This document shows, piece after piece, positions 67 through 36,013 of a stretch of 64,000 nucleotides of DNA. The position numbers and the translations under genes are program-made. Source of the DNA: Pleodorina starrii (taxonomy: Eukaryota; Chlorophyta; Chlorophyceae; Chlamydomonadales; Volvocaceae); NCBI GenBank assembly GCA_030267565.1, contig BRXU01000025.1, forward strand, positions 328,501 through 392,500, in the 5' to 3' direction. Every line of letters begins with the position of its first letter. Position 1 is the first letter of the stretch. The notes beneath the pieces were generated by a model. It worked only from the letters and a program-made list of their open reading frames with translations. It did not search any database and was not told the origin of the DNA.

Positions 67-1794
67 GCCCAGTTCCGTCTGTCTGAGCTGAGCCTGCCCG
101 GCCAGGCCCTCAGCGGCTCGCTGCCCGACTCGCTGCCCCAGTTCCTGGAGGACGGGGCCGTGCTGGACCTCAGCGGAAACGACATCACAGGTGCGGTCTG
201 CGTGGTTCTGGCCCTGTGGGCCGCTGGTGGACAGTCAGTTAGCCAGGCAGAAAGGGAAAAGAGTGGGCAACGGCTTGCACTTCCACCATGCCCTGCCCTG
301 GCGCTGGCATGCCCTGGAGCGCTGCCGTACTGCCTCCGCTGTCCACTCCTTATGTCATTGTGCCACCGCTACCGCTAGTTGGTGTGGAGACGCTCGCTGC
401 GGAGCTGCGGAGGCGGCTTTCGTGGCGGTGGTACTTTCCAACCCTGGCTGGTGCACTGCTCCCCTTGCGGCCCGCTGCCTCGCTCGTGTCGTCATGTCGA
501 CGTGTATTATGTGGCACGGCGCTTCAGAGCAGCCATGTGACATGCCTGGCTCCGAAACGCACCCCGTGCGCCACCACCACCACCATCACCGCGTGCTGGG
601 GGTTGCGCACAATGACAGACCGTTTGGTTGGACCTGGCTGCAACCCTCTTTTCCAACCCCAGTCACATACACACGGTCTCTGGGTTCTGTGGCCCGTTTG
701 CCAACGTTGCATCCTATCCAGCGCTGCGCTCCATTCGTTAATTACGAATTTACCCCTCATTCCGGGTCGGAACGACAGGCACTCTGCCGTCCGCCTGGGG
801 CAGCAACACCAGCGACTTGACGGGCTTCTCCCTCCTGCGACTGGATGGCAACCAGCTGCGGGGCACCCTGCCCGCCTCCTGGGCTCGCCTGGTGTGGTCC
901 TCCGTCTCAGTCAGCCTAGGCGGCCAGCAGAGAAAAAGTGGGGGCCTTCGGGGGCCCCTGCCGCAAGAGTGGTTGTCGTACTCGCCGAGCGGCTCGTACA
1001 ACGGGTCGGCGCTGGTTGCCCTGGACATCAGGCAAGCGGCGGGGGGGCGGGAGGGCTGGCTGAGATCAGGACACGTCGGCGGGTAGCGCTGGAATGCAAG
1101 GGTGAAAGTCGGTGTGCGCTCTGCTGGCCTCCCTCCCTGATTCCCCTCCCTGGACCCCTAAAACCCTAAAACCCTAAAACCCCTCGGCAGTTCGGCCAAC
1201 TGCACCTGTGATGATCCGCGGCCTGCGGGGTCATGGCTGACAGCAAAGGAAACAGCGGGCCTGCTGACATTCAACACCAGTGGCGCATTCCAGACGTCTT
1301 GCGCGCTTTCAGGCTGCATGCCCGATCCCCCGTTACCACCGCCATCGCCGCCGTCGCCGCCATCGCCGCCGTCGCCAGTTTTGTCACCGCCGCCGCAGCG
1401 ACCACCCTCGCCATCGCCGCCGTCGCCACGACCGTCGCCGCCGCCATCACCACCATCGCCATCACCCCTGCCGCCGCCAGCACCCTCGCCATTGCCACCT
1501 CCACCACGACCGTCGCCGCCGCCAGCACCACCATCGCCATCAACCCTGCCGCCGCCATCACCCTCGCCATTGCCACCTCCACCACGACCGCTGCCGCCGC
1601 CGGCACCGCCGTCGCCGGTACCCCGTCCGCCGCCACCACCGTCGCAATCGCCGCCGCCGCCACGGCCATCGCCGCCGCCGGCACCGCCGTCACCCCGACC
1701 ACCTTCCACACCTAATGCGGCAATCGATTTGGATTTCAGTGCGCTGGTGGCCTTGACGGAGGCCATCTTGAGCGCCACAGAGATTCCAGATGAG
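67..1794 (+). other. LRR module A: last LRR exons, Cys cap and first Pro-rich linker
   Basis: Exons are 67-190, 779-1031 and 1191-1794. The first two encode plant-type leucine-rich repeats (SLPGQALSGSLPDSL, DGNQLRGTLPASW). The third begins with a Cys-containing cap (CTCDDPRPAGSWLTAKETAG) and then about 130 residues of Pro/Ser-rich repeats (PPSPPSPP type) at 1318-1710, the kind that is hydroxylated and glycosylated in volvocine wall proteins. It ends ILSATEIPDE before a GT donor at 1795. The intron after 1031 begins with GC rather than GT. The earlier LRR exons of this module must lie before the window. The same cap and linker recur in module B. Confidence 0.75.
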
Positions 1795-4700
1795 GTGCGA
1801 GATGGCGCATTTCCTAGACATGTGAAACACCTGAAACGAGGGGACATGTTGGCTGGGCCCGGGTTGCGGTCTTGCTGGGTCAGTTGCACGTCACACAGAA
1901 ACACCTCCCTTCCATTCGAGGTGTTTCTATGTGACGTGCAACTGACCCAGCAGGTTTTAAGTCTGGTTACAGGTAACCGGTACGTCTTCTGGGAGCTCCA
2001 CAAGGTTCTCGGAAACTCTCTCTCCATGTCCCCGGCTTGCTAGGTCCGCTCGCCAGGGGTCGCCTCGCCCCACTCCGCTGCGGTTCCTCGTTTTCCTCCG
2101 CGGCTTGTCGTTCCCCTTTGGCAACCGGCAGCGAAGAGGACAGCGAACTCTCCTCCTCCTCCTCGCTGAAGATGCGCCTGGGGCCTTGTGTGTCTCGTTG
2201 CCTGGTTGCGCGCCTCTCCGCCGTCTGGCATCCCGTCAGCTCGCCACGCTTGGGACTTGTCATACTTCCCCCCACCCCCCCCACCCCACCCTTCGCTCTC
2301 GCCTGCGTCGCATCCGTCTAAAGCGTTCCGCTGCGGTGTCATCTTCACGACCGCCTTTCTCCCCCCTAAAGGGAGCATATCATTCCCTGACCCCCCTAAA
2401 TTACCGTTTACGGGCACCGGGCTATACTTGGATAACCCCCCCTCCCTCCCCCCATTCCGTCAACTTAGGGGCAAGCACTGCTGGCCAGCCCCCTGCCCTC
2501 CGGTCCACCGCTGCGGTTTCATCTTATTTTTTACGGCTCCCCCTGCCTGCCCGGGCGCCGACCTCTGCCCTGCCAAACCGATCCCCCCGCAACCCCCGTG
2601 CGCGTGTGCGGCCCCTCGTCCTCCTCCTCCGCCGCCACCTCCCACAGCCCTCCACCGCCGGGACGCTTCTGGACAGCTGGACCGGCACCCAGCCGCCCTG
2701 CTCCGCCTCCGAGTGCGAGCCTTGCCGCCTGTCCGATACGGCGCCGTGCGGCAGCACAACCGGCGGCGTCACCACCTGCAACTACATGTACATTTCCTGT
2801 TCAGGCAACCGCATCACGGGGATACACCTGGGTGAGCGGCGACGGGTGTGTGTGTTGGGGGGAACCCGTCCATGCACCACCGCCCTCGCAAACACATTCC
2901 GCACTCACCCGCACTTACCAAACAGCACATACACACACACGCCCCCCAAGGTCCTGTCTGGGGCTGGCATACGCCTACCTTGCGCACTGACCCCTACCTG
3001 GCTCAGTTTGGGGGCACATGCCACTGTTGTTCAGGAGCCTGGCTTGCACGCTTTGACACCCGGGCTTGGTTGCGCCTCGGGGGTGAGGGCGGCTGTCGGG
3101 GCTCCAAGCCGTCATGCGGCCCGTATTTGCTCTACCCACGATCACCGCAACATCCAATCCGAGCCGCGTCGTTTTTATACGCATGGGCACACACACACAC
3201 ACACACATACACGCGCGCTCTCGCACGGACACCCTCGCGCCCTCACAGGCCTGGACCCCTCAACGGAGCCGGCAGCGGTCGAGCTGAACCTCACGCTGCC
3301 CTCCCTGCGGGCCAGCCACCTGCCTTCGGAGTTCCGGAACCTGACCGCCCTCTCGGTCCTGGACCTGGGAGGGGTGGCGCTGGAGGGCGGCTCGCTTCCA
3401 AGCGGTCTCAGTGCGCTGACGAAGCTCCGAAACCTGACGTTGGTGGGGGTCCCCGGCGGCGGCCCCACCGGCACGCTGCCCAGCTCCTGGTCGGCGCTGA
3501 CGTCCCTGGAGCATCTGGAGCTGAGGCACATGCCGAAGATGGACATGGGGATCCCAGCCGCGTGGCAGGAGCGGACGTTTTCCTCCCTGCGGAATGTGAC
3601 GCTGCGTAAGTGGGAAGGCGGGCCGTGTGGGGTGACGGTATAAAGAGAAAATCGCAGCGGAGAAGGAGATGGCATGAGCGAACGGACCCAGGGGGTGGCG
3701 TGGGGTGAGGGGAGGCGGAGGGGACGTGTGGGTGCGGGTGCGGGTGGGAGGGGATGTGTGGAAGTGCATGGGGCGGGATGAGGAGGTGGAGGCGGGGCAT
3801 GTGCGCACCTGCCTTTGTCCTCTGTGCTTGCGGGCCCCGCACATGTTGGCCACCGGCCGCCTTGCATTGCTGCGCCTCGCCCTTCCTAGCTTCCATACGC
3901 ACATACACACATACACACATACCTACATGTGCCGGTATGTCGTATCTGCTCGTCGCGTGACTGAGGGAGCCGCAAAGGCAGCCGCTCCGGCTACACCACC
4001 ACCAGTCCACCACTACCACCACCACCACCACCCTCGCGACTCCCGCTGCGGCTGTCGCCTGCCCTACCACCTACCCTTTTGCGCCCTCCCATCCCGCCCC
4101 CTCCCAGCCCCCATCCCAGCCCGCTCCCACCCCGCACCCCACCTCCCCCATCTCCGCTGTGAATTTTTCTGTATATCCCCCACCCCGCCCTCTTGACTGG
4201 CAAACCAAAGCCCGATCCGACCGCACGTGCTCCTAGCTCTACCCCTTGCACCCTACCCCACCCCACCCCACGTACACATACACCCACCAATCACACCCGG
4301 CTGCGCGCGCCGCGCCTCTCGCCACGCACCTTTCAACGCGCCCGCGCCTTTCACCGCGCCGCCCCTTTCACCGCGCCTTTCACCGCGCCGCCCCTTTCAA
4401 CGCGCCTTTCGCAGTGGGTATCTTCGGCAAAACCGGCTGCCTGGAGCTGTGGCAGTTGGAGGGGCTGTTGCTGGGCGCCGCGGGGAGCCTGGCGCATCTG
4501 CAGCTGGGCGGCCTGGGCGAGCAGCCCGCCGTGGACGGCTGCTACCAGGGCGTCACCCGAGACCTGGCCTTCCTCGCCGGTTTCGGAGCGCTGCGCGTGC
4601 TGCGGATACAGCACATTCGGGAGGCGGGGCTCAATGGCATCGAGGGCGACCTGGAGGCGCTTCTGCAGCAGGAGGAGGTAAGGGCAGGGGTGTGTGTGAG

Positions 4701-7700
4701 TGTGGTACGCAGAACCTGCCCTTACCGCCGCACCTTCTTCTCTTGTACCTGCGTCGGAAAGGACCGCGTGGGAAGTCGAACCTGAAGTGCGCCGATCTGA
4801 GCCTTTGTGAGAACCCCCTCCCTAACCCCTATCCCCGCCCTTTCCAATCGGCCGCTCCGCCCCTTGTTTCTGCAACCCCACAGACCCCACAGTTCCGTCT
4901 GTCTGAGCTGAGCCTGCCCGGCCAGGCCCTCAGCGGCTCCCTGCCGGACTCGCTGCCCCAGTTCCTGGAGGACGGGGCCGTGCTGGACCTCAGCGGAAAC
5001 GACATCACAGGTGCGGTCTGCGTGGCTGTGGCCCTGTGGGCCGCTGGTGGACAGTCAGTTAGCCGGGCAGGCAGGCAGTGCGGTTCTCTTGCCTGCGGGC
5101 GTTTCTGGTGGCGTGTTGTTGCTGGGTCGCGGCCGACCGACAGACAGACAGGGTCGGCAGGCAAGTCGCGGGCACGTCGCGGGCAGCGGGTTTTCATCTA
5201 CCGAGGGAGGCACCAAACCGGCGCTGACGAAGAAAGGGGAGGCAGGGAAGGGAACACCGTGTTGGTGGTGCAACTGCCCACGTGCACATGTTCCGTTCTG
5301 CGGTGGGTGAACAGTGCTGGCCCGCAGCAGAACTGACTGTGGGCTGGCGACTACTACTTGCGGGTTTTAGGGTTTTCAAATGCCTCCTCTGCCTCATCCT
5401 GCGTTTCCCATTCTCTATCTGACCCTCGGGTCCACCCGCCATCACTCCTCTGCTGCGGGTTCCTTGGGCCCGTCCCGCTCCCCCGCCCCCCCATCCCGCT
5501 TCTCCTGTCCTGTGGGTTACTGTATTCTCATCGTGTGGTGTACGGTACCGGTATTCTACCGCGGCATGCATTCTCCTGCTGTGGGGTTCTCCTGCTGGGC
5601 TTCAATGGGCCGATCCATTCTATGCACGCCGTACCCGCAGGCACCCTGCCATCCGCCTTGCATCCTATCCACCGCTGCGCTCCATTCGTTATTTACGGAT
5701 TCACCCCTCATTCCGGGTTGGAACGACAGGAACTCTGCCGTCCGCCTGGGGCAGCAACAGCAGCGACTTGACGGGCTTCTCCCTCCTGCGACTGGATGGC
5801 AACCAGCTGCGGGGCACCCTGCCCGCCTCCTGGGCTCGCCTGGTGTGGTCCTCCGTCTCAGTCAGCCTAGGCGGCCAGCGGAGCGCTGAGGGCTTGCGGG
5901 GCTCCCTGCCGCAAGAGTGGTTGTCGTACTCGCCGAGCGGCTCGTACAACGGGTCGGCGCTTGTCGCTCTGGACATCAGGCAAGCGGCGTGGGGGGCGGG
6001 AGGGCGAGTGGGGGTTTGAACGTTGAGCCAAAGCGAATGTGAGGAGGGGCAGCGATTAGCGCAATAGCGAGGAAAGACCACCATGTGAGAGCGAAGTGAG
6101 GCTGAGGCGGCGCGTGCAGAGGAGTGAAGGGGGTATAAGGAATGAATCGCAGCGGAGAAGGAGACGGCGGTAGAATGAAGGGGGGCAACCAGCCAGAACG
6201 GAGCGGGACCCGGCAGAGGGTCCGTGAGGGGAGGGGGGGACCTGCTTGGCCTCTGGGGCCTGCTTGGCCGCGTGAGGGGGGTGGGGGAAGAAGGCACCGG
6301 CCGCCTGTCCGCAAGCTTGGCCCCACCCCGCACTTGGCCCTGCCTTGCTCCTGCATCCTCGTCGTCAGCAGTACCGTATTACGGAGTAGAGTGGAGGCGG
6401 CAGTGCCCAGTGCCTTGTACCACACGTGGCGGCTTCAGGCACCCCTGCCCCCAAAGGCCAGACGTGACCCCGGCGATGCCCCCGTGCGCTCCCCTCCGTC
6501 GCGTCGCCCCGGACGAGGCAACGTCCTCCTCTCATGCACGCAAGCGGAGGCGCCACCGCGGATGCCGCACGAGTGCTCGGCCTAACACTCCATGTGTGCT
6601 CCCTCCCCCCTCCGTTGCCCTTGCGCTCCATCGCTGCAATTCCGCCCTAGGGTTTTTCATTTTTTGCCGCTGTGTTCTCGCCTGCCTGTGTTTCTCCCCT
6701 CCCTGGATTCCTCCCGCCGCAGCGCGTCCCCATGCACCTGTGGCTACGCCCTGCCTGCCGGGTCCTGGCTCGAGGCCAAAGTACGGGCGGGTCTACTGTC
6801 GTACACTTACTCCAACGCATTCCTGTTCCCCTGCAACGAGACGACGTGTCAGCTGGATCCGCCGTCGCCCCCCTCCACACCCATGCCGCGATCCCCGCCA
6901 CCCGCGCCACCCGCGCCGCCGTCTCCACCAGCATCACTATCGCTGCCGCCGCCGCCGCCGCCGCCGCCATCGCCGCCGCCCCTCCCTCCACCATCGGGGG
7001 CCAGTTCACCTCCAAACCCACCTGGCCTTGACCCAAGGCCGCCCACAGCTCGACCGGATTTCCCTATTGTGCCAGTAGCATCACCACCGTTGCCGCCGCC
7101 TCCGCCACGCAGCCCTCCCGCAGTGCCCCCATCTCCTAATCCTCCATCACCCCCGCATCCGCCAGCGCCTCCCAGCCCGCCGCCATCACCGCCTCTGCCC
7201 CCCAGACCTCGGCCACAGCCACCCCTGCCGCTCAGCCCGCCACCCCTGCCGCCAAGCCGAAATGCCCCACCACAGCCGCCGCCGCCCAGCCCGCCACTGC
7301 CGCCGCTGCCGCCCAGCCCGCCACTGCCGCCGCTGCCGCCACCCAAACCACCATCACCGGCGCCACCGTCAACCGTACTGCCGCCACCGTCAACCGTACT
7401 GCCGCCGCCGCCGTCGACTGTATTGCCGCCGCCGTCAACCGTACTGCCGCCGCCGCTGTCAACCGCACTGCCGCCGCCGTCGACCGTACTGCCGCCACAA
7501 AGGACAGTCCTGCCGCCACCTCCATCACCAACACCAACGCCGCCACCGCCGTCACCTGGCCGGCTCCCACCACCAGGCACCACGCCGCTGCCGCCGCCAT
7601 CTTACCCAACGTCACGGCCCACCCCCGACACCCTGCCGGCGCCGCTACCGCCTGAAGCCCGCCCGGCGCCCAGCCCGGCGCCCTGGCCCTCTGCAGCGCC

Positions 7701-10700
7701 TCCTGCGCCAGCTTCACCACCCATGTACCCACCATCGACTGATCCCGGCACTCCACCAAGACCGGCACCGCCACCAGCGCCGTCGCCACCGGCCTTGTAC
7801 CCTGTAGCGCCACCGCCGCCCATGGAAGCCGGTGTATACCCCCCGGCACCGCAGGCTCCTCTGATGGAGTCGAAGAAGGCGCCGCCGCCTCGACCCCCAC
7901 GACCTCCCTCACCACAACCGCGCTCACCTCGGCCGCCCCCATCTCAATCGCCGCCTCCACAACCGCCAGCGCCTCGGCCGCCGCCCCCACCTAGACCACC
8001 CCCGCCTTGGCCGCCCTCGCCTCCGAGACCACCGCCTCCCCCTCCAGCGCCCCCGCCCTCACCACCCCCTCCTTCCCCACCCCCGCGACCGCCCTCTCCG
8101 CTGTCGCCCCCTCCGTCGCCGCCCTCCCCACCCCCGCCCCCATCGCCACCCCCGGCGCCGCCGCCTCGGCCGCCGCCACCCCCATCACCACAGCCACCCC
8201 GCAGACTCCGGCCCCCGCCCTCGCCGCCTGGTAGGTCTGAACCTGGGGGGCGTATCCTGACCCCTCCCCCCCTGACCCCTGACCCCTCCCCCCCTCGGGA
8301 TTCCGGAGGTCTGACGCCGCGGCCGGAGGCCTTAGGAAACACGACGCTCCTGTGTGTCACAAATGAAACCACAAAGAGGGGTGGCCTTGGGCAGATTGAC
8401 ACTGGGGGTAAAAAAGAAGATACCGCAGCGACAGGACGGAGATGGCGTTCGCGAACGGACCTGGAACGGACCTGGACCGTTCCTTTGCATGCCGAAATAT
8501 GCACGTCGTCGCCAATCTTGGGCTACCAAGCCTGACACCCACTGCCGCCCTTCACACCTTCAGAACTTTCCCATGTCCTCCTACACCCCAAACCCCAGAC
8601 TCCCTAACCCCACGCCTCCACCCCCCGCACGCGTGTGTATGTGTATGTGTATGTGTATGTCTGCCCCCCTGCAGCTCCCCCGCCGTCTCCCCCCTCCGCC
8701 GCCGCCCTCTTCGACTCCGTGTACAACCCCTACGTGGCCTTCACCGCCGGCTTCCCCGCCCTCTCCGCCTCCGGCTACCCGGGGGGCGCCTCCTCCCTGC
8801 TGAAGGACTTCCAGGCCATTGTTGCCAGCACTGCCCGGCTGCCGTCAACGGAGTACGTGCAGGCAAGACACACGGGGGGGGCGGGAAGGGGGGGAAGGGG
8901 CAGGCAAGACACGGGGGGCGGGAAAGGGGCATAAAGAAAAAATCGCAGCGGAAAAGGAGACGGCGTAAGCGAACGGACCCAGAACCCAGCAATACTTACC
9001 GAACATACCTGGGGCAGGCAAGGGGAGAAGCAGGCGAGGGTGCACAGGCCGGGGAAGGGGCAGGCGAGGGAAGAAGCAGGCGAGGGCGCACAGGGCGGGG
9101 AAGGGGCAGGCAAGGGAAGAACCAGGCAAGGACGTACAGGGCGCTGGGCGCCACCCTTGAGGGCCCGGAGCGCACTGTAGCAGGAGGGGATAGTACAAGA
9201 GGCCACAGGGCGGGTTTTAGGGTTTTTAGGGTTCAACAGCATGATGTTACAAGACGCGCAGGGCGGGAAGGGGGGCGGGAGGGAGGAGGCAGGGAAGGCG
9301 AGGGGAGGGGCGGAGGGGGTGCGCCATCAGAAGGTGTGAAAAAGGAAACGCGACCGGAACGGGCCCCGGCACCACAGTGGGTGCTCCACGTCGGCGTGCC
9401 AGCATTCAGCCATCGTTCGTGCAACGCAGTACGCAGCCTGCCAACCCCTATCCAACCCGTGTGCCCCCTACATGCTGCGCTCCCGCCCTCGGCCCCTGCC
9501 CTCGGCCCCTGCCCTCGCCGTTTGTCATGCACGCCGCCTCCTCCGCCGCCCCTGTCCCTCCACCGCCTCGGTTGCTTTGCTGCGCTCCCTATTGCTTGCA
9601 TCACCTGCACGTCCCTCGCGTCGCCTCGTTGACCTTGATCTTGATCTTGATCTTGCTGCGCTGCGGGGATTTCCTGCACCGCTCATCCTGCGCCTTAGGT
9701 GAGCCTCGTCGCGGACGCAACCTCCAGGCGCAGAGCACTACTGGCGGCTGATGCCAGCGGCAGTGGGTTGGTCCTTTCCTGCAAGGTGAGCCAACGCGCG
9801 CGCGCGTGTCTGTGTGTATGTCGTATTGTCGTTACAGTATCTGACCGGGCTCTGACGCTGACCAGGGGCTGCTAACCCAGCCCCGACGGAAAGACCGCCT
9901 AAGCACTCTCCCCCTTGCGGTGGGAGAAAGGCGTGAGGGGCCGCTACCTGCTCCTGCTCGACGCAGAGCTGGCTGCGTCGTACACCCCATGTACGGGTGT
10001 ACGACGCAGCGGCTCCCCAAGGGCTTGAGTGTTTGAGGGGGGCGGCGGCGGGGCCGCCACATCGCCGCGGGGAGCTGCAAGAAACACACTGGACTGGGGT
10101 TACACGAAAGTGAAGGCACTGGCCTTTTTTCCCTTCTCTAGAAATTTCGCCCCCGCCCCCTCCGCCTTTCTCCTGGTGCGTGTGCGCCCGCTGCCGCTGC
10201 TGGCCTGCGCGCACCGCTGCCGCTGCCGCCCCTGCCTGTGCGCCCCACTGCCCTCGCTGCCTGCGTGCCAACCACTGCACACCGCTGTCACTCCTGCCTG
10301 CGCGCCCCCCTCCACCCCCCTGAGCTCCGGCCTATTACGTGGATAACCGCCTCTCCCCCCATCCCCACCCCTCAGGTTTGGTTCCCGACCAACTGGAAGT
10401 CCGTGTCCGGCACCTTCGCCAGTCAGACCTCCCTGGACTCGTTCGTGTTCTTCCTGAGGAAGATGCCCTCCCTGGCGCTGGAGCTTCCGGACACCTACAC
10501 CGACTTCGACGCAACGAACGTGGAGGTGGGCGGTGTGTGCGTGTGTATGTGTGCGTGGGTGTGTGTGGTGGAGTGCTATTCCCGCACGCGAAGGCGCGTG
10601 CATGTCACACGGCTCGTCACGCGGCTCGTCACGCGGCTCGTCACACGGCTCGTCACGCGGCTCGTCACACGGCTTGTTACACGGCTCGTCACACGGCTTG

Positions 10701-19495: not shown

Positions 19496-19530
<35 letters not shown>

Positions 19531-22285: not shown

Positions 22286-22318
<33 letters not shown>

Positions 22319-25300: not shown

Positions 25301-28300
25301 TTTCTCCACAGAGCTGAGGGTGTTTGGACACGTGGCAATGACGTTTGCCTGGGCGCGAGATGGTGGGTCGGTTCAGGGTCGGTTGCTGGTTTTGAGGGTT
25401 TTAGGGTTTTAGGGTTATGGGCTAAGTGCTACGGCATGCGTGCGCACGCGGCCATTGATGACATCCATCCAATGGTTGATGCTGTGCCTTGAGATTTGGG
25501 CACGAGACGGTGCGTGGCTAGCTGGCTGGCTGGCTTTCCTCGCCTCGCACTCCCCAACCCAACCCAACCCAACCCAACCCAACCCAACCCAACCCAACCC
25601 AACCCAACCCAACCCAACCCAACCCAACCCAACCCAACCCAACCCAACCCAACCCAACCCAACCCAACCCAACCCAACCCAACCCAACCCAACCCAACCC
25701 AACCCAACCCAACCCAACCCAACCCAACCCAACCCAACCCAACCCAACCCAACCCAACCCAACCCAACCCAACCCAACCCAACCCAACCCAACCCAACCC
25801 AACCCAACCCAACCCAACCCAACCCAACCCAACCCAACCCAACCCAACCCAACCCAACCCAACCCAACCCAACCCAACCCAACCCAACCCAACCCAACCC
25901 AACCCAACCCAACCCAACCCAACCCAACCCAACCCAACCCAACCCAACCCAACCCAACCCAACCCAACCCAACCCAACCCAACCCAACCCAACCCAACCC
26001 AACCCAACCCAACCCAACCCAACCCAACCCAACCCAACCCAACCCCAACCCCAACCCCAACCCCAATCCCAATCCCAATCCCAATCCCAATCCCAATCCC
26101 AATCCCAATCCCAATCCCAATCCCAATCCCAATCCCAATCCCAATCCCAATCCCAATCCCAATCCCAATCCCAATCCCAACCCCAACCCCAACCCCAACC
26201 CCAACCCAACCCAACCCAACCCATACCACATGCACGCCCAAATACACACATACGTACGCAAACGCCCAACCCGTGCAGGCAGCGTGAACCTCGGCTTCCG
26301 CTTCTCCGGGCTGCCTGGCCCCACCTACCTGCGCACGTCCGCCGCCTCCTCGGGACACACCTGGTCGGCGGTGGCGGCCCACGAGCTGGCTGGGCTGTGG
26401 GTGCTGACAGCCCTGTTCGTGGCGGTGGTGGCGGTGCAGGCTGCCAAGGCGGTGTGGGACGCGCGAGGGGGAGACCTCTCCATGCAACAGGTGGGTGGGT
26501 GGGTGGCTGGGTGGGTGGTAATTGAAACGGCCCGGGACGAGGGAACGGGGCTGGGTGGGTGGCTGGGTGGGTGGGTGGCTGGGTGGGTGGGTGGCTGGCT
26601 GGGTTGCTGGGTGGTAATTAAAACGGCCCGGGACGAGGGAACGGGGCTGGGTGGGTGGCTGGGTGGCTGGGTGGCTGGGTGGCTGGGTGGCTGGATGGCT
26701 GGGTGGCTGGGTGGCTGGGTGGGTGGGTGGGTGGGTGGGTGGCTGGGCGGGTGGGTGGGTGGGTGACGACTGCCAATGTGCTGCCCACTGCTGCCTGGTG
26801 CCTGATATGCACCGCCTGCTGTGCACCGCCTGCTGCCGACTGCCCGCTGTTGCCGAAGGTTTGGGACCGCTTCGGCAACCTGCTGATTGACTTGACGGTG
26901 GCGGGGCTGCTGCTGGCGGCATCAGCCACTTGTGCCTGGTGAGGCATTTGATCGTACCACCAACATGAGGGGACATGGGGGGGGGGAGGGAGTCGTGCTT
27001 GTGTGTGTTTGGGGGGAGGGGGAGGTGGGTCCACGGATAGGCCGGAGCCCGTGAACGGTAATTGATGTCGGAACCCTCGAAAGAAATGGAACGGGGGTTG
27101 GAGGTGCGGGCAACGAATTCCGGTAGTAGAGACGCGCGGCAAGATCTGGAGATGCCAAAGGGGGGGCGTTTGGAGTAATAGCTAATAGGGTTTTGGGGAG
27201 AGACGTTTGCAGTTGGGAGTTGTTCTCTCTCCCCTTCCTCCGCCCCCACACAAACACACCTCCCCCTCCCCTTTCCCCCCTTTCCCCCGGCACACCCTCC
27301 ACAGGTACATGGTGGCCCACGCGTCCATCTTTTCCGCCCGCCAGCACTACCAAGTGTACGACAACATCTTGGCGGCGCGCGCCAGGTGGCTGCTGCCGCA
27401 CAAGATCGACCCATGGGACATTCCCGCCAATTCGACGCAGGCCGTGGCATTGCAGGTAGGGAGGTCGGGTGGAGAAGGGCGACGGAAGGGCACGTCATTA
27501 TCTTGGGTGGTGTCCTTCAGAGTAAGTGTGTAACTCCCGTCCCCCACGGGTTTTGATGCCTTCCCCTCACCTCCCCCTCACCTCCCCCTCACCTCCCCCT
27601 CACCTCCCCCTCACCTCCCCTTATCTTGGTTGGTGGCCTTCAGGCAGCACTCACCGCCCTGAACCTGACCCAGCCCACCGAGGCCGGCGACCCGGGCCGC
27701 TACCTGCTGCCGGACATGCCGTACGACCAGTTGGACGAGCTGGCGGGAGTGCTGGCGGCCACGCATGGCATGACACAGGCGTGGACGTTGTACGGCATCC
27801 TCCAGGCCTTCACTCTGGTGCTGCTTCTCGGCAGGTGCGGGCGGGGGGGGGGGGCGGAGTGGTCTGGGTGTGTGCGTGACAAGCGCATCTGTGTATATGT
27901 GCGCATGCGCGCGTGGCATTGCACAAACACCGCGCACGTGGGTGTGCATTACACCATGCATTACAGCAAGCGTTGCAGCATGCGTTACAGCATGAGTTAC
28001 ACCACGCGTTACACCATGCGTTACAGCATGCGTCTGTTACGGCTGTCTTGGGGGAGTGGTGCGACCGGGCGATGGCTGGGTTGGCCCATTTCCAGCACGC
28101 GGTCCATCCATCCATCCATCCATCCATCCAAACGGAAGCGCGAGAAAGCGACCCAAAGGCGTCCATCCAAACTGAAGCGCGAGAAAGCCACCAAAGGCGT
28201 CGGTCCAGCGGAAGGTGGTCTGCTCCCTTCGTCTCCGCACCCGCCCGCAGCCCCCCACCCCACCCCATCCCGCTGCTTGTTGCTGCTCCCGACCCGTACC

Positions 28301-31300
28301 AGCGACGCCACTCCAGCTTGCTCCCAACCCCCCCGACCGCCCAGCCACTGAGGTTATCTTCCCTGCACTCTCCTCGACCCCTCTGGCCGCCGCAGGCTGC
28401 TTTCCACGCTGGCTTTCCAGGGCCGCCTAGGCGCCATGATCCGGACCCTCTACCACACCGTGCCACCCCTGGCGCATCTGGTGAGCAATGCGTTGGGCTA
28501 CCAGTCAGTGGCGATACCCATTGCAAAGGACGAGGCTAGACGAGGCTAGATGAGGCTTGATGAGGAGCTAGATTAGGCTAGATGAGGCTTGATGAGGCTT
28601 GATGAGGAGGCTAGATGAGGCTAGATGAGGCTTTCTCCCTCTTCCCTTACCTATCTGGTGCGTGGCGCCCGGCCTGGCACATGCGGAATGGGTGGCGGCC
28701 CCCTCTTCGTGCATTGCCCTTGCCCTCACCCCCGGTCACACGCCGCCGCTCCCCCCCCCGCCCTCCGTCCCTTCGCTGCGGTGTCATCTTTCTTACCCCT
28801 CACTCATCCGACCTCGGGCCCCCCCTTCCGGTTCAGCGGCAGTGGCAGCTAGCTCAACAACGTCCGCAGTGACTCATTATTTATATAAAGGAGCATATCA
28901 CTCTCTGACCCCCTTTCCTCACGGACCTTGTCTCCCCCTCACGGTATCATTTTGGGTATCACTTTTTACCCCCTCACGCCACAGATGCTCGTGATTGTGG
29001 TGATGAGCCTGATGCTGGCAGCCATGGCTCACCTGGTGCTGGGGACCTATGTGGAGTCAGCATCTACATACACAGGTGCAGGGGGGGGAGGATGGGTGGG
29101 GGGGCCGGGGGCGGGGCGGTGGGAAGGTTTGGAGGGTTTGCGGCGGGTCCCTTTTCCCTGTCACACTGTCAGCCTGGACGAGTCTTGCCACTTTGGACCG
29201 TCACATTCTCCCCCTTCCCCTCCCCCCTCCCCTCCCCCTTCGTCTCCCCCTCCCCTTGGTCCGTCCCCCCAGGCGCCCTCGACCGCACCATGTCGCTGTT
29301 CTTCGACCGGGGCTTTCTGGAATCCCTTTCTGTGCTGCTCTCCCGCGACAAGGAATTCACGGCCGGGCAGGTGAGTCGAGGAGGGAGCCCGCCTGCCCTC
29401 TCCTGCTGAAGGAGGGAGCCCGCCTGCCCTCTCCTGCTGAAGGAGGGAGCCCGCCTGCCCTCTCCTGCTGAAGGAGGGAGCCCGCCTGCCCTCTCCTGCT
29501 GAAGGAGGAAGCCCGCCTGCCCTCTCCTGCTGAAGGAGGGAGCCCGCCTGCCCTCTCCTGCTGAAGGAGGGAGCCCGCCTGCCCTCTCCTGCTGAAGGAG
29601 GGAGCCCGCCTGCCCTCTCCTGCTGAAGGAGGGAGCCCGCCTGCCCTCTCCTGCTGAAGGGGGACCGCAGTGAAGCCGGGAGGCTCCCACACCTCTCCTC
29701 CCCTCTCCCCCCATTCCCGGCCCCTCCATTCCCCCTTCCCTGCCCTCTCTAATCCTCTTCTATCCTCTCCTATCCATTCCCTTCCCCCTCTACCCCTGTT
29801 TCCTCCGCTCCCTCCCTCGGCCCCCGCCCCCCGCATTGTCCCCGCAGCGCCTGGCCGCTACCCTGGTTCTCATGGCTCAGGTGCTGCTGATCATGTTTGT
29901 GCTCGTCAACTTCTTCTTCTCGGTCATCGTAACAACGTGGGTGTGGGGGTGGGGGTGGTTGTGGCGGTTCTGGTGGTTGTGGTTGTGGTTGTGGTTATGG
30001 TTGTCGCGGTGGTTGTCGCAACGGGCTCCAGACTCCGGGAGAGAAGGGGTAGGGAACAGACGCTGGCCGTAAGACGCCAACACGCCATACACATACAGGG
30101 CTCTGAGGGGTGAGGGAATGACAGGGTGAGGGAAAGACACTAAAACCGTTAACCTCCCCATCCAACAATCCCTCATCTTCCCCGCCCTCCCTCCTGAAGT
30201 CCTAATCTGCTCCCGCCCCATCCTCCCTCCCCATTTCCGCATTTCACCCCCCAACCTCCCGCCTTTTCTCCTGACCTCCCTCGGTCCCATCCCCCCTGCC
30301 CGCAGGTTCCGGAAGGTCAAGTTTAGCTGGGGCTTCCGGAATGGCACCACCGTGTGGCAGGTGGGGGGATGTGTGTGGTGGTGGGGGGGGGACGCGGGGG
30401 AGGCGGGGTGTTAAGGGGCTGAGCGGGTGAGGGTGCGGGTGAGGGGGTGGGACGTGGGCCTTTCTACCCTTCTTATATTCATCACAACCAACCTCTTAGC
30501 TCAAAACCCACAAATCCTATTATGTCACCATGATCACCCGTACCCCATAGTCCATAATCACCCGTACCGCTATTCGATTTTATGGATATCGACGACGACC
30601 AACTCTTGACACCGGAAGCACCAACACTTCCAACCTGGCTCCAATCCGGAATTCCGAAAAAGTTCGCAAAATTCCGGAATTCCGACGGATGGAATCCACG
30701 ATCTGGTTTCGGCGCGCTCCCCGCATGCAGGACTTGGGCCGGGTCCTGCTGCCCGACATGTCCGCCGCCGCGCAGCGCTGGTCGCGCAAGGTCGGCTGCG
30801 GACTGCTGTACCGCCGCCGCCAACCGCCACTGACCAACCGCCAAGTCAACCGACTGGTACGAAAGCGCGCCCTGGCGGGCGTCGACGTGCGGCCGCCCGA
30901 GTGGAAGGCCGTGCGGGCCATCCTCCTGAGGCAGGGCGACGGCGAGGGCTGCGTGCCGCTGCCCATACCGCCGCCGCGGCCCGGGGCCCGTCGCTCCGTA
31001 GCGGCTGCCGCCGCCGCTGCCGCCGCCGCTGCCGCCGACCGCGAGCCGGAGGCCCCCCAGGGCGGTCGCCGTCACCGCTACCGCCAATCTCATCCCGCAC
31101 ACGCCCACTACTTTTACGTGGAGGTGGAGGTGCTGCGGGCGGTGCTCTTGGCGGCCATCGGTCAGCGGATGCAGGTGGACGAGCGTGTCGTACAGTCGCT
31201 GATGCTGTTTGGGGTGCCGAGGCCGTCATCGGCGGCGGCGGCGGAGGGCGGTGGTGGTCCCGCTGGCGGCGGCGGCGCACGTGCCGTCGCGGAGAGCACT

Positions 31301-31730
31301 GACGCCGGCGGCGGCGGCGGCGGCGATGGTAGTGGAAGGGGCGGCGGGCCGGTCGCTGCGCCGGAGTTGCTGTCCGCCCAGGCGCCCCACGGGCTCCCGA
31401 GGCTGCCGCTGCCACGGCTGCAGCCGTTGCTGCTGCGGCCGCCACCGCCGCCACCGCCACAGCCGGAGCAAGAGCAGGACGAGGCACAGCAGCAGCACCA
31501 GCAACAGCACCTGCAGCAGCACCAGCAACACCAGCAACAGCAGCACCAGCAGCAGCACCAGCAACACCAGCAGCAGCAGCAGCAGCAGCTGATGCTTCCG
31601 GCCATTATCGCTACCATGGCCCGGACCCCGCTCCCGCTCCCGACCGCGGCCCCAGCCTGTGGCCCGGCCGCGCAAGCGCTCGTGCGGCCTTCTTTCAAAG
31701 CCACGAGCGAGGGGCCTTCCGGGTCTTCGC

Positions 31731-31774
<44 letters not shown>

Positions 31775-34731
31775 TCCTCGCCGTTGCCAGCCAGTCCCGA
31801 GCTGGAATCCGTTGTGGCCTTGGCGGCGGAGCGGCTGATGGCGCGGCAGGGCCACCGAGTGTACCCTCCGCCGCCGCCACCGCCGCCGCGGGCGGGGCGG
31901 ATCAGCCGGGCCTGGGCCGCCGCGTCGGCGGCGGCGGGCGTGGCCGCGCAATGGCAGCGCGCCTTGCGGAAGCGATCCGAGGGTGGAGGCACGGCCGCGG
32001 CTGCCGCGGCGGCGGGAGCTGTGGAGGGTGGTGGCGGCGGCGGCGTCAGCGGCGTCGGCGGGAAGGGGGCTGCGGAGGCGGCCACGGTGGCGGCAGCCAC
32101 GGAAGGTGGCGGCGGCGGCGGCGGCGGCGGGAAGGCACTTGCAAAGGTTGTCGCCTGCGGCGGTTTCATTATCGGCGTCAGCGGCAGCGGCGGCGGTACC
32201 GGGTACAGCGCCGGCGGCAGTGGCAGCGGCAGCGGCAGCGGCGGGGGTGTTGATGGTGGCGGTGGCGGCCCTGTCGTGGACGCGGAGGGCGAGGTAGAGC
32301 GCTTGCTAAAACTGTACGACGCGCTACAGCAGTTCGTACACGCCATGGAGAGGTGGCAGGTGGGAGTCCACCGCTGGCAGCTCAAGGCTTGGAAGCAGCA
32401 GGCCGCCATGCGGCTGCAGGTACGACAAGGGGTCGTGTCCGTACCGTACGGCAAGCCGCGGTGGTGTCCGTATCGTATAGGCTCCAGCAGCAGCAGCCCT
32501 CACATCCGCCCTACCGTTGGAGCCGTGGTTTAGGGTTTTAGGGTTGTTTTAGGGCTCGGTGCTTTGTGCTGCTGGTATGGCCACTGGAAAATGAAACCAA
32601 CTTGATACCGTTCGCATTGCATCTTCCGGCACATGCTCTCTGGCCAGCCAGCCTGACGAAAAGGGTGCGACCGGAACCACTGTACCTCCCGTCCCTATCT
32701 CCCTAAGCTCCTCCTGATCCTGATCAGGCAACTCTGGAGCCTGCCTCTCCTCTTCATGGCCCATCACCATCGCCATGCCTGGCCTCACCCTCACCCTCGC
32801 CCTCAGTCCCATCCCATCCCCACCGCCCTCACACATATACACACATACACACACGCCGCCCCCACCCACCCCCCGCTGGGTTCTGGGTCCGTTCGCTAAC
32901 GCCGTCTCCTTCTCCGATGCGGAATTCTCTTTACACCCCCCGCCCTCACCCGCCCTCCGCTGCTGCCCGTCTCCAGACCCACTCCATGCTCGCCTCTCTC
33001 ACCGGCCTCAGTGAGCCACCACCGCAAGACAGCCTGCCGCCGCCACCACCGCCCCTGACGGCGCTCGGTAACCTCTCCGTCTGCCCCAGCGGCGCCTTCT
33101 CCCGGAGCGTCGCCGCCACCGCGGCTGCCGTACACGCCGCCGCTGCCGCTACCCCCGCCGCCGCTGACTTTTCCTCGGCCGGCAGCAGCTACCAGGCAAT
33201 CCAGCTCTCCGGCGGCGCCGAGTCGTCGTACAGCACTGGCGACGGCGCCGCCGCCGCCGCCGCCGCCGGCCGCGCCTGTGGCGGCAGCAACAGCAGCATC
33301 GACGCGAGGGCATCGCTGTCACAGCAGCTGGGCGCCGCCGCCGCGGCGGTGGCGGCGGCGCTGCGTCGGCCGCTGTCTCATCACGGCGGCTCCAGCCGCG
33401 TGCTGCCGCTGCCGGCGGCTGACCCGGCGGGGCCGCTGCCGCCGCCGCCGCCGCCGGCGTCCATCTCCTGGCCAGGCAACGCCGGTGCAGCACCGCCGGA
33501 GCTGGCACCCGCCGCCGCCGACCTCCGCAGCCCCGTCTGGGCTGAGAGGAAGCCATCCAGCACTCTGCTGGGTCCGGGCTCGATGCCAAGCCGCCAGCCG
33601 TCGCTGGATACGACGGGGGCGGCCGCCGCCGTCGCCGCGGCAGCGGCGACCCCGCCGCCTCCACCATCCGCGCTGGCGTCCGACCAGCCGCAGGACTCCC
33701 CCGACGCCGTACTCCCGATGCGGTCCACGGCCAACGGCTCGGCCGCCGGCGACGGCGCCGACGCGGTGGCACGCAGTCCCGGCGTCGGGCACCTGCCGCC
33801 GCTGCCGCGTCACCATCTGCAGCCGCTCAACGGCGGCGGAGGCATCCGCTCCCACGGCAGCGGCGGCGGCAGCGTCCACCGGCCGCCGGCGCTTCCGCGC
33901 GTCTCCGAGCGCGGTGACGCGACGGCGCTCGATACACTGACGCTGCCGACGGCATTCAGCAGCCCGACGGCGGCGCTGACGGCTGCGGCGGCAGCGGCGG
34001 CAGCCTACGGCACCGCCGACGGCGGCGCCGGCGGCAACGCCGTCACGGCCGCCGCCGCCGTCGTCGGCAGCAGCGGCGGCGGCGGCGATGAAGCGCCTCC
34101 CTACAACTCGATGCCGGTCCGCAGGCGCTCCTCCCTCAGCAACAACTTTATGCGCACCGACGGTGACGGCGCCGCCGCCGACGGCGCCGCCAGGTCGCCG
34201 GCGGCGCTGCCGCCGCCACCGTCGGCATCGGCGTCGGCGGCAGAGCCGAGCACCACCAGCCCGCCGACCTCGGCTGTGCTGCCGCTGCCGCCGCTTCCAT
34301 CCCGGCAGCAGCAGAGGCAGAAACAGGAGCAGGAACGGCAAAGGGAACAGGAACAGCCGACTTCAATGTCGGACGAGGATGCTGATGGCGGCGGCGGCGG
34401 CGCCGCCGCCGCCGCCGGCGGCTCTGAGCAGGGCACCGACGGCGAGGCCGCCAGGCCTGCGGACCAACAGCGCCTGCGGGCGTGGCCCACCGGGCGTGCC
34501 GGCGCAGCCGTCAACGCCCCCGGCGCGGCGCCAAAGTCACCGCCGCGGCCGCTGTCGCCGTCGCAGCAGCTGCAGAAGTCGCAGAAGCGCCTGCGGCAGC
34601 AGACGCAGAAGACGATGATGCAGCTGAGGCAGCAGATGCAGGTGCTGGCGCAGACGTTGCCCAGGGTGGAGGCGGAGGCGTCGGAAGCAGCTGGCGGCGG
34701 CGCCGCCGCCGCCGCCGCCGCCGATGATGGA

Positions 34732-34764
<33 letters not shown>

Positions 34765-36013
34765 GACGACGGCAACAACAAGGGCACCTGGTCCAGGGGC
34801 ATGCCGGTGCTTCGGGAGAAGTCCAGGTATGGTAGGTTTATGAAGGTTCAGCATTTAGGGGCCGGGGGCGGGGCGGCTGGGTAGAAGTAGTAACAACGGA
34901 ATCTATATTAGTCCAACTAGCCATAAAATACCGTAAATTAGCAGTGAGGCATGGCAGCAGTTGACATGTACCGTAGATTGACATGTACCGTATATAGAAA
35001 GCCTTAACAGATGAGCGAATTAAAACTCCTATGCGTCCGATAGCTGTACAGATAGGGATGGGCGGGAAGGGAAGGGAAGGGACTCGCACGCCGCGCCGCT
35101 GCCAGTGTGTATCATCTTGATCACCCCGCTGCCAGCCGCTGCACACAACACCTCAGAGGCGGTGCAGCGCACGGAGGGCCAGCTGCTGGCCCGTTGGCTC
35201 TGCCCTTCCCTGGATCTGCAGCCCGCTGTAACCCCCGCCCTCAAAACACACACGTACCCACACAAACACACACAAACACACAGACACACAATCACACACA
35301 TGCCACCTTAGAGCCTTCCCACGTTCCCAGCGCTCCCTTTTCCCCCCGCCTGTGCAAGTGACGCCCCCATCCGGGGCCATAACCCTGCATCCTCCTCTAC
35401 CGGCAACTCCGCCCCGCAGACAGCCCCACCAAACCCGCCTCACCAACCTCTCACCCCCGCTCCCCGCCCCCACTACGGTTCATCCCATCACAGGACCTCC
35501 TGGGCCATGCCCCTTCCGGACCCCGCTGGCGTGCGGCCGTCCGACAACGGCGGCAGTGGCGGCGGCAGTGGCGGTGGCGGTAGCGGTGGCAGCAAGGCCG
35601 GCCCCGACACCTCCCCAGTCGCCCAGCCGTCCCTCTGGTCGAACACGCGGCACATAAGCTTCTTCAACAAGCCAGAGCCGACGTCGACGTCGCCGCCTGG
35701 CGCCAGCGGCGGCGGCGCCGCCGCCGCCACACCGCCGCGGCCACAGCTGGCGGCGGCGGCGCCGCGGCAGGGTCGCCTGGCGGCGGGCTTGAGCCTCGGA
35801 TCCAACGTGTTCTCGCCGCTGGTCCGCGGCTCATCTATAGACATCCCGCGACACGCTGGAATCCCGCCGCCGCCGCCGCTGCCGCTGCGGGCGGGCACAG
35901 GCAGCGGCGGCGACACCGCTTCCGCCTCCGCTGCCGCTGCCGCTGCTGCGGTCTCCATGGCAGAGCCAGCGGCGCCGCCGCCGCCGCAATACCCGCAGGA
36001 GCCGCACCCATAG
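67..36013 (+). CDS. Giant LRR / Pro-rich / Ig-like / polycystin-type channel protein, 5' truncated by window
   Basis: I read one gene of about 49 exons running off the left edge of the window, with its stop codon at 36011-36013. Exon phases close at almost every junction, which is the main argument for a single gene rather than several. Coding length in the window is about 14.7 kb (about 4,890 residues). Order: LRR module A, Cys cap and Pro linker, LRR module B, Cys cap and Pro linker, unrecognised extracellular segment, Cys/Ig-like repeats, polycystin extracellular (TOP-like) domain, transmembrane core, very long cytoplasmic tail. The channel assignment rests on YGTDPVFLPSSSLY (24,620s), DRYTRSLTAEVLAFSTELRV (exon 25248-25362), the S4-S5 linker FQGRLGAMIRTL and the S6 segment LLIMFVLVNFFFSVIV. 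The protein is likely plasma-membrane or flagellar, with a big ectodomain. Polycystins (TRPP) are cation channels; whether this one conducts is unknown. The penultimate exon (about 35100-35230) is uncertain. Individual blocks are described in the following entries. Confidence 0.82.
1159..1182. repeat. Interstitial telomere-like motif (CCCTAAAA)n
   Basis: About three tandem copies of CCCTAAAA, the complement of the Chlamydomonas-type telomere unit TTTTAGGG, sit just upstream of the acceptor for the exon at 1191. Shorter copies recur in other introns (see the findings). Confidence 0.8.
1872..1954. other. Long near-perfect hairpin inside an intron
   Basis: The arms 1874-1907 and 1918-1951 are inverted complements over 34 nt with one mismatch (a possible G-U pair in RNA), separated by a 10-nt loop. 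Pairing extends a few bases further with one wobble. It lies in the intron 1795-2647 of the giant gene. Length and near-perfect pairing resemble algal miRNA precursors, but a small inverted-repeat element is an alternative. Confidence 0.8.
2648..5979 (+). other. LRR module B (N-terminal cap and leucine-rich repeats)
   Basis: Exons are 2648-2831, 3249-3605, 4415-4677, 4884-5010 and 5730-5979. The first exon is an LRR N-cap (LLDSWTGTQPPCS, a Cys cluster, then GNRITGIHL), the usual start of a plant-type LRR domain. The following exons carry LRRs such as LPSEFRNLTALSVLDLGG and LPSSWSALTSLEHLEL. The last two exons are near copies of 67-190 and 779-1031 in module A, including flanking intron sequence. 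Phase into 2648 (0) fits the donor at 1795, so modules A and B can be read as one protein. A separate gene starting near 2600 cannot be fully excluded. Confidence 0.78.
6723..8230 (+). other. Cys cap and long Pro-rich (hydroxyproline-type) linker of module B
   Basis: This single 1,508-nt exon is entered from a GC donor (5980). It starts with CTCGYALPAGSWLEAKVRAG, a clear paralogue of the module A cap, then FPCNETTCQLDPP. From about 6858 it is almost pure Pro/Ser/Ala (PPSPPPPSPP, with STVLPPP repeats at 7365-7500), about 455 residues long. This composition is typical of pherophorin/extensin-like linkers that become hydroxyproline-glycosylated rods. The donor is at 8231 (phase 1). Confidence 0.8.
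8932..9000 (+). repeat. Dispersed repeat R1, most complete + copy
   Basis: It starts ATAAAGAAAAAATCGCAGCG and ends CCAGCAATACTTACC. Other + copies lie at about 3641-3691, 6134-6172, 8409-8462, 41923-41990 and (partial) 45668-45690 and 47453-47483. Confidence 0.85.
9972..10010. repeat. 16-bp perfect inverted repeat
   Basis: The arms 9972-9987 and 9995-10010 pair perfectly around a 7-nt loop. A further 8-bp copy of the arm end (CGACGCAG) sits just upstream near 9959. It lies in the intron between exons 9699-9785 and 10376-10525. Confidence 0.85.
10605..10757. repeat. 12-bp intronic minisatellite
   Basis: About twelve copies of CACACGGCTCGT (with CACGCGG variants) lie in the intron after the exon ending at 10525. 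Confidence 0.9.
12345..12446. repeat. AGTAGCGGC / AGTAGGGGG minisatellite
   Basis: Nine-base units alternate in a higher-order pattern in the intron after the exon ending at 12321. Confidence 0.85.
17205..17440. repeat. 20-bp minisatellite next to a 3' splice site
   Basis: About eleven copies of CTCCTCACCCTCACCCGCCC directly precede the acceptor of the exon at 17453. The array is pure pyrimidine/A on the coding strand and so extends the polypyrimidine tract. Confidence 0.9.
18559..18632 (-). repeat. Dispersed repeat R1, - orientation
   Basis: The inverted form contains GGGTCCGTTCGCTAACGCCG and CGCTGCGGTACCGGTATCTT. A second inverted copy is at about 32875-32935. Fragments of the CGCTGCGGTATC end are common in other introns. 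Confidence 0.82.
19534..20986 (+). other. Large single exon with Q-, A- and D-rich tracts
   Basis: This 1,453-nt exon starts with the end of an Ig-like repeat, then an ordered stretch (DVEVFAHVPSAVNVGDLRD, FIESLSANASFLAETLGAKL). It runs into a Gln/His/Glu-rich tract (about 20188-20330), a second short Q run, Ala runs (20470-20510, 20540-20570), an acidic DDDDDDY patch near 20640 and a PPATPPATPP linker. It ends SLQALVATLEGQ before the donor at 20987. The low-complexity tracts are coding-compatible CAG/GCC expansions, absent from neighbouring exons. Confidence 0.75.
21816..22240. repeat. About 28-bp minisatellite (GGGGCTCGATCGGGGGATCG type)
   Basis: About fourteen degenerate copies fill most of the intron following the exon ending at 21805. 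It is followed by a (TG)n run near 22285. Confidence 0.88.
22474..22506. repeat. Interstitial telomere-like motif before an acceptor
   Basis: Three CCCTAAAA units lie about ten bases upstream of the acceptor for the exon at 22518, in the giant gene. Confidence 0.85.
24999..25061. repeat. (GGGGC)n array
   Basis: About twelve uninterrupted GGGGC units lie 22 bases downstream of the exon ending at 24976. Such a run can form G-quadruplexes on the transcript. Confidence 0.95.
25554..26222. repeat. AACCC-family satellite with nested variant units
   Basis: About 97 AACCC units run to 26040, then four AACCCC, about nineteen AATCCC, four AACCCC and about four AACCC units. The array fills nearly all of the intron between 25362 and 26279. 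On the other strand it reads GGGTT, close to but not the same as the TTTTAGGG telomere unit. Long open frames across it on both strands are artefacts. Confidence 0.97.
26495..26766. repeat. GGGTGGCTGG-type microsatellite with internal 100-bp duplication
   Basis: GGTGGGTGGCTG units are interrupted twice by the same block (containing AAACGGCCCGGGACGAGGGA at about 26524 and 26621). Local tandem duplication is therefore layered on the simple repeat. It lies in the intron after S2. Confidence 0.85.
28525..28632. repeat. GAGGCTAGATGAGGCTT short tandem repeat
   Basis: Degenerate units of 8-17 bases lie in the intron after the S4-S5 exon. A (CATC)n run also occurs at about 28105-28130. Confidence 0.8.
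28857..28913 (+). repeat. Dispersed repeat R3 in the channel gene intron
   Basis: Contains ATAAAGGAGCATATCACTCT preceded by CGTCCGCAGTGACTCAT, nearly the same as 46104-46158 some 17 kb away. Confidence 0.85.
29379..29659. repeat. 31-bp minisatellite in the intron before S6
   Basis: About nine near-identical units containing CTCTCCTGCTGAAGGAGGGA begin within ten bases of the donor at 29371. There are no unique spacers, so it is a tandem array and not a CRISPR. Confidence 0.95.
30731..36013 (+). other. Very long low-complexity cytoplasmic tail
   Basis: Exons are 30731-32419 (1,689 nt), 32977-34826 (1,850 nt), a short uncertain exon around 35100-35230, and 35494-36013 with the stop. After a basic start (SRKVGCGLLYRRRQPPL) come ordered islands (HAHYFYVEVEVLRAVLLAAI; VERLLKLYDALQQFVHAMER) separated by poly-Ala, Gly, Pro and a Q/H tract at about 31480-31590. 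Near 34561-34680 a predicted coiled coil, QQLQKSQKRLRQQTQKTMMQ, could mediate oligomerisation as C-terminal coils do in polycystins. The final exon is Gly/Pro/Ala-rich and ends QYPQEPHP. The exon splits are far fewer here than in the ectodomain. Confidence 0.72.
32875..32935 (-). repeat. Dispersed repeat R1, - orientation, next to a splice acceptor
   Basis: Contains GGGTCCGTTCGCTAACGCCG and ends about 40 bases before the acceptor of the exon at 32977. It lies close to the branch-point/polypyrimidine zone. Confidence 0.82.

Follow-up and report, generated by a model that had tools for sequence, protein, structure and literature searches.

Among green algae, a class of membrane proteins was published in 2024 that combines a large ectodomain with an incomplete PKD domain completed by a second protein, SIP, and PKD1 has been named as a possible functional analogue of this class (PMC11015965). 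The axial protein of the Chlamydomonas mastigoneme, MST3 (9b4h chain X), is reported to carry a large ectodomain with poly-Pro helices and Ig-like domains, a PKD-like membrane part without S1 and part of the TOP domain, the missing piece being encoded by SIP, and a long C-terminus; a complex of MST3 with PKD2 and SIP is described, partly from predicted models (PMC11015965). Seven more C. reinhardtii proteins with large ectodomains are reported to share the MST3 layout and predicted to bind SIP, with an incomplete PKD domain, LRR (leucine-rich repeat) among their domain types and poly-Pro in six of the seven (PMC11015965). SIP is also reported in Volvox carteri (PMC10846610). Here we describe a gene of this kind in the colonial alga Pleodorina starrii, analysed in a stretch of 64,000 nucleotides (contig C25, positions 328501-392500; hereafter the window), which holds most of one very large membrane protein gene on the plus strand.

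As read from its sequence, the window gene is a receptor-channel architecture in one gene, and it groups better with split polycystins of the MST3 type, for which SIP is the proposed completing partner, than with polycystin-1. We consider it probable that the gene encodes one giant protein that serves as a receptor-channel subunit of the MST3 class. The two proteins are not alike throughout: MST3 has 8,572 residues, takes its name from a C-type lectin domain and forms copolymers with MST1 (PMC11015965), whereas the window gene carries LRR modules, gave no lectin match in the parts scanned, and is without evidence of filament formation.

Closer in overall layout are three annotated Chlamydomonas proteins, each with LRR, Ig-like and channel parts in one chain: P0009 of C. 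reinhardtii (CHLRE_16g682550v5, 6,017 aa), P0008 of C. schloesseri (HYH02_003943, 6,974 aa) and P0010 of C. incerta (HXX76_009800, 4,583 aa). All three share with the window gene the LRR, a globular domain, Ig-like repeats, a Pro stretch, TOP and S2-S6, at about 44-45% identity over the channel part, so that the same order, which the first-pass annotation had proposed to look for in volvocine proteomes, does recur, in proteins that may themselves be partly predictions. P0008 and P0009 differ in having Ricin-B lectin domains. The main text of the 2024 report names Cre13.g569550, Cre12.g539650, Cre09.g400850 and Cre11.g479383 among the predicted SIP-binding proteins and no Cre16 gene (PMC11015965); P0009 may be one of the seven.

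A probable single gene from signal peptide to cytoplasmic tail

The genome searched was an assembly of 95 contigs (136,057,477 bases), in which C25 measures 1,777,229 bases; position 0 corresponds to C25:328500, and negative positions lie upstream of the window. A hidden Markov model (HMM) for genes was self-trained on the window, the 40 kb upstream of it and, from elsewhere in the genome, 16 further stretches of 10 kb; reading-frame hints were set by hand over the Pro-rich exons at 1250-1800, 6790-8250 and 8660-8860, and the first exon was lengthened by hand to the ATG at -2582. The resulting plus-strand model has 52 exons encoding 5,287 residues, with no internal stop and a terminal stop at 36013. 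Earlier inspection had read about 49 exons from position 67 onward, with phases closing across almost all of them, and the model agrees, placing 48 of its 52 exons in 67-36013; position 67 as the gene start had to be given up, since it is the start of exon 5, and a signal peptide at about -2582 puts the beginning of the gene some 2.6 kb ahead of the window. The protein opens with this signal peptide and a Pro stretch, similar to P0008 (signal peptide, then Pro rod), and continues through LRR module 1, a Pro/Ser rod, LRR module 2 and a long rod to the globular domain, the Ig-like repeats, a third rod, a partial TOP domain, S2-S6 and a tail, as follows.

-2582 to -192, plus strand: signal-peptide exon and first three exons of LRR module 1, upstream of the window (gene model)
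67..1260, plus strand: 3' part of LRR module 1, comprising exons 67-190 and 779-1082 and the start of exon 1191-1794 (gene model; LRR_1, 1.2e-6)
1261..1779, plus strand: Pro/Ser rod 1, within exon 1191-1794 (61% Pro over 133 residues; frame hinted)
2648..6789, plus strand: LRR module 2, an exon-by-exon duplicate of module 1 (gene model, DNA comparison)
6790..8721, plus strand: Pro-rich rod 2, exon 6723-8308 and the start of exon 8675-8862 (54% Pro over 491 residues; frame hinted)
8722..11663, plus strand: globular domain that follows rod 2 and leads into the Ig-like repeats (conserved in P0008, P0009 and P0010)
11640..19612, plus strand: Cys-containing Ig-like repeats, five counted by eye (PF16403, 1.8e-13)
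20672..20902, plus strand: third Pro stretch, which also precedes the channel in P0008, P0009 and P0010
23951..26370, plus strand: partial TOP (polycystin) domain (MST3 profile alignment; three strands in the paralog-core model)
26386..30306, plus strand: channel core S2-S6 (hydropathy, PKD_channel, MST3 profile)
26386-26454, plus strand: S2
26871-27311, plus strand: S3
27779-28423, plus strand: S4
28478-29044, plus strand: S5
29281-29349, plus strand: pore region
29851-30306, plus strand: S6
30307..36013, plus strand: low-complexity cytoplasmic tail of 1,370 residues (gene model; last exon, 35494-36013, without a homolog-supported join)
32282..33015, plus strand: short conserved tail segment, the MERWQVGVHRWQLKAWKQQ region (BLAST matches of P0002-P0005, P0010 and P0011)

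The first-pass annotation had proposed that one protein joins LRR domains, Pro/Ser rods, Ig-like repeats and a polycystin channel, and this combination is supported here, also by its recurrence in Chlamydomonas. The domain search suggested for it was made with Pfam on three assembled pieces of the translation. LRR_1 matched on module 1 (1.2e-6, 27.9 bits against a cut-off of 20.6), PF16403 matched the Ig-like repeats in two stretches (1.8e-13), with HYR matching weakly, and PKD_channel (PF08016) matched the core (8.5e-10, 38.9 bits against a cut-off of 22.4). A Pfam scan of the raw frames of the window did not match PKD_channel, the exons being short, and among the matches listed in a PF08016 search of the genome itself none fell in the window. 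PF20519 matched nowhere and was uninformative. The globular domain at 8722..11663 gave a sub-threshold Pfam match only, and looks SEA-like by eye alone.

Without hints, the HMM read the rods in Ala/Thr frames and its path ran on into neighbouring genes; the rod frame adopted here rests on the hint, on the open frames at 1162-2043 and 6586-8535, and on the Pro-rich rods of the relatives. The best unhinted path scored 1108.5 on the plus strand versus 552.8 on the reverse strand, and 30 dinucleotide shuffles under the same scoring gave a mean of 15.0 and a maximum of 32.9. Because the HMM was trained partly on the window itself, we weighted homology above path score. Separately annotated homologs bridge 45 of the 51 splice joins (16 residues without gaps and at least four identities), leaving those after 1082, 1794, 5988, 8308, 10946 and 34826 without such support; four of these six flank the rods, and the other two are those after 10946 and, as the final join of the model, after 34826.

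These gaps bear on a rival reading, in which the model has wrongly fused at least two genes across the rods, one for an LRR/Pro-rod wall glycoprotein and a separate one for the Ig-like/channel part. Several observations weigh against a single gene: no homolog supports the four joins at rod edges, hints had to be given for the rod frames, and two homolog searches (length windows of 1,243-3,955 and 2,750-8,750 residues) returned neither an annotated P. starrii protein spanning the whole nor any annotated protein identical to the gene. The nearest annotated P. starrii proteins are other copies of a tandem array described below (66% and 61% identity), and two array copies, C and D, have channel and Ig-like matches and no LRR match. 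A third search, with P0009 as query, gave no further family member. Set against this, each of the three Chlamydomonas relatives has its LRR, Ig-like and channel parts in one annotated chain, LRR exons lie ahead of the channel in all of copies A, B and E, and just one signal peptide-like segment lies upstream of the channel. TGTAA is the volvocine poly(A) signal, and none occurs on the plus strand between -1298 and 11730, an interval that includes the poly(A) site near 2050 that had been proposed as a sign of transcripts ending between modules. The other sign proposed was a start codon used near 2600 or 22500; in the model both exons there, at 2648 and 22518, open with an acceptor site, and the join into 22518 is covered by homologs. 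We therefore regard a misjoining of separate genes as unlikely and retain the single-gene model.

The N-terminal region of this gene appears large, extracellular and rich in poly-Pro, as indicated by the signal peptide (by hydropathy), the rods and an excess of N-glycosylation sequons. Before the channel, 40 sequons were counted versus 17.8 expected from composition, and in the tail 3 versus 2.0; an excess before the channel and not in the tail fits an N-terminus outside the cell. Downstream, at 53967-56833 on the plus strand, lies a 2OG-Fe(II) (2-oxoglutarate- and iron-dependent) oxygenase gene (PF13640, 4.8e-17) that by eye is of the prolyl 4-hydroxylase type; it neighbours a gene whose rods would need proline hydroxylation, which may be coincidence. 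Further on, 59770-60779 on the plus strand holds a NUDIX hydrolase gene (PF14815, 3.7e-17; PF00293, 6e-16).

At the other end of the protein, the tail, earlier put at roughly 1,400 residues, comes to 1,370 in the model. Its conserved segment at 32282..33015, the motif of which is also found in P0010 and others, gave no solved relative. The stop at 36013 has against it that the last join is without ungapped homolog support and that the next TGTAA lies at 39038. An alternative stop at 34884 (TGTAA at 35227) is disfavoured by an SW-x-MP motif after the last join that is shared with P0009, as judged by eye.

The channel core and the question of S1

Hydropathy gave the signal peptide and five strong segments fitting S2-S6, and nothing from the signal peptide to S2 reached 1.5, so that no clear S1 is seen; one further weak peak (1.51) falls in a tail stretch of low complexity. 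A profile built from seven homolog cores matched the MST3 chain 9b4h_X with an E-value of 1.7e-73 (251 bits), over chain residues 6248-6883 and positions 121-759 of the 775 in the homolog profile, and a single-sequence match to MST3 gave 6.9e-14. The same profile reached 3.4e-11 for PKD2L1 and 3.8e-11 for PC2 at best. By these profile comparisons the core is far closer to MST3 than to any polycystin-2, and its sequence relates it to the PKD-like domain of MST3 as a split polycystin.

Polycystin-2 has six helices and an LGD filter. The window gene has five clear helices, and reads FDRG in the pore region where homologs have G: it has Asp (GAC) in place of a glycine that all nine homologs compared retain. 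Such a replacement would suit a subunit with a regulatory, not a conducting, role, or else decay. A 671-base array at 25553-26223 (5-base unit CCCAA, about 129 copies, 99% matches) occupies much of the intron that precedes the S2 exon.

Could the protein be a six-helix polycystin after all, with S1 in a weak hydrophobic segment near residue 3156? This segment is the sole S1 candidate, and related segments reach 1.80-1.86 in P0002, P0009 and P0010. In the window gene it reaches only 1.35, it stands about 220 residues, predicted to be helical, away from the TOP strand at residue 3391, the interval up to S2 contains six sequons, and, with a signal peptide, the TOP domain would be expected to end on the wrong side of the membrane. 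Given its distance from the TOP domain and the topology, the segment is unlikely as S1, and we give the six-helix reading little credence beside a core of S2-S6 and a partial TOP domain.

Structure prediction with AlphaFold2 was poor for a 756-residue fragment and better for a 542-residue fragment of a paralog core (P0001; predicted local distance difference test score, pLDDT, 52). With this P0001 model at pLDDT 52, at least the first 34 Foldseek rows were polycystin entries (best E 2e-7, TM-score about 0.3). VIA placed TRPML chains above polycystins by Z while polycystins aligned over more residues; as this ranking conflicts with the aligned extent, fold rank was not used to choose between TRPML and polycystin. 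A TOP domain without its first helices and one strand characterises the MST3-type class; PC2 chains align to the model from about residue 270, which is where the modelled piece was cut, and because the fragment is cut after the place of S1 it says nothing on the absence of S1.

Human polycystin-1, a partner of PKD2, likewise unites LRR and Ig-like repeats with a polycystin core, and has eleven helices, GAIN/GPS and PLAT. The resemblance in layout led the first-pass annotation to suggest a parallel or ancestral version of polycystin-1. The window gene differs in having five clear helices plus a signal peptide, not eleven; at Pfam sensitivity, neither PLAT nor GPS/GAIN matched in the pieces or raw frames scanned; and PF00801, the PKD Ig-like repeat family, found no match in the parts scanned, the repeats scoring as PF16403 instead. 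With a core nearest MST3, the parallel stands as an analogy in layout, and we regard an ortholog of polycystin-1 or its ancestral form as highly improbable.

A tandem array with duplicated LRR modules

Searches with channel, Ig-like and LRR queries placed five tandem plus-strand genes on C25, the window gene being copy E. LRR matches were counted at E of 0.001 or less, and the array counts are lower bounds.

C25 163.6-167.4 kb, plus strand: channel exons of copy A, preceded by LRR matches
C25 206.3-210.6 kb, plus strand: channel exons of copy B, preceded by two sets of LRR exons
C25 245.7-249.5 kb, plus strand: channel exons of copy C, with channel and Ig-like matches and no LRR match
C25 287.3-292.5 kb, plus strand: channel exons of copy D, with channel and Ig-like matches and no LRR match
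C25 353.7-358.9 kb, plus strand: channel exons of copy E, preceded by two LRR modules

Upstream of copy D, the 20 kb at 249.6-269.6 kb gave no match to the N-terminal pieces of the window gene or of four relatives. Two more genes, members of a sister subfamily, lie on contig C2, and a tree left three P. starrii sequences and a Volvox pair unresolved. Between copies D and E, nonsynonymous divergence (dN) is 0.27 and synonymous divergence (dS) 1.10 over 273 aligned codons, and a dN so far below dS indicates purifying selection.

Compared with each other, LRR modules 1 and 2 of the window gene form a mosaic. Four DNA blocks are 93-97% identical, with a dS of 0.067 over 290 codons, and a middle block has a dS of 0.69 over 103 codons; gene conversion on either side of a middle exon that has diverged would be a likely cause. 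Two sets of LRR exons are present in copy B as well, and the duplication may therefore be older than the array. The splice donor used by module 2 is altered in module 1; together with the Asp that replaces the pore glycine, this could mark a decaying array copy, kept intact only recently. A frame open over 52 exons and a dN well below dS speak against this, and we hold decay to be very unlikely.

Several other loci touch on this family. The PF08016 genome search gave eight loci, three of which (L001, L002 and L004) were without a readable channel model. L007, on contig C1 at about 6.127 Mb, is an MST3-like channel gene, its likeness to the MST3 alignment judged by eye, and P. starrii may thus also have a mastigoneme axial protein. 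Between the copy D channel and the window gene, at C25:309,940-319,025 (L010/L009; window -18560 to -9475), a reading frame without introns stays open for 3,028 residues and encodes a Ser/Thr-rich repeat with 32 SSSLQ motifs spaced 58-148 residues apart; it may form the tail of copy D, to which the gene model assigns it.

In the open-licence literature we found no paper on Pleodorina with polycystin, nor one naming any of five gene identifiers tried, and neither the window gene, the five-copy array nor the LRR mosaic was found in print. The class has been known since 2024; new here are the five-copy array, the LRR modules detected in three of its five copies and the mosaic LRR duplication.

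A proposed mechanism and its implications

If the window gene works as an MST3-class subunit, its signal peptide would place the long N-terminal part outside the cell, where the LRR and Ig-like domains could form a recognition arm and the Pro/Ser rods, presumably hydroxylated and glycosylated, would serve as stiff spacers holding these heads off the membrane. The membrane part would be an incomplete polycystin fold of partial TOP and S2-S6 with no recognisable S1, for which, by analogy with MST3, a SIP-like single-pass partner would most likely be needed to donate S1. The protein might then join PKD2-type subunits as the minority subunit of a tetramer, so that force or ligand acting on the ectodomain could tune a cation channel, either of the cilium or of the plasma membrane. 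What we infer here from the analogy comprises the modification of the rods, the partners and their stoichiometry, the location and the mechanosensing, and mechanosensing tethered to the extracellular matrix would likewise be part of that inference.

A more speculative reading, which we think has a modest chance of being right, is that one MST3-type receptor-channel was expanded into the array of five, with ectodomains that differ between copies, and that the array serves to diversify recognition heads on a shared split-polycystin channel, with LRR cassettes homogenised at their edges and divergent in the middle exon. If true, the heads might serve, for example, in recognition of the extracellular matrix, a neighbour cell or a mating partner. 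More broadly, the locus carries the 2024 idea of algal polycystin-1-like sensors, with a split PKD fold and glycoprotein arms, from unicellular Chlamydomonas to a colonial relative, and indicates that genes of this kind can expand into tandem copies, with LRR-plus-rod cassettes being reshuffled. It also makes testable the possibility that colonial volvocines may use such channels for extracellular-matrix sensing, or on their cilia.
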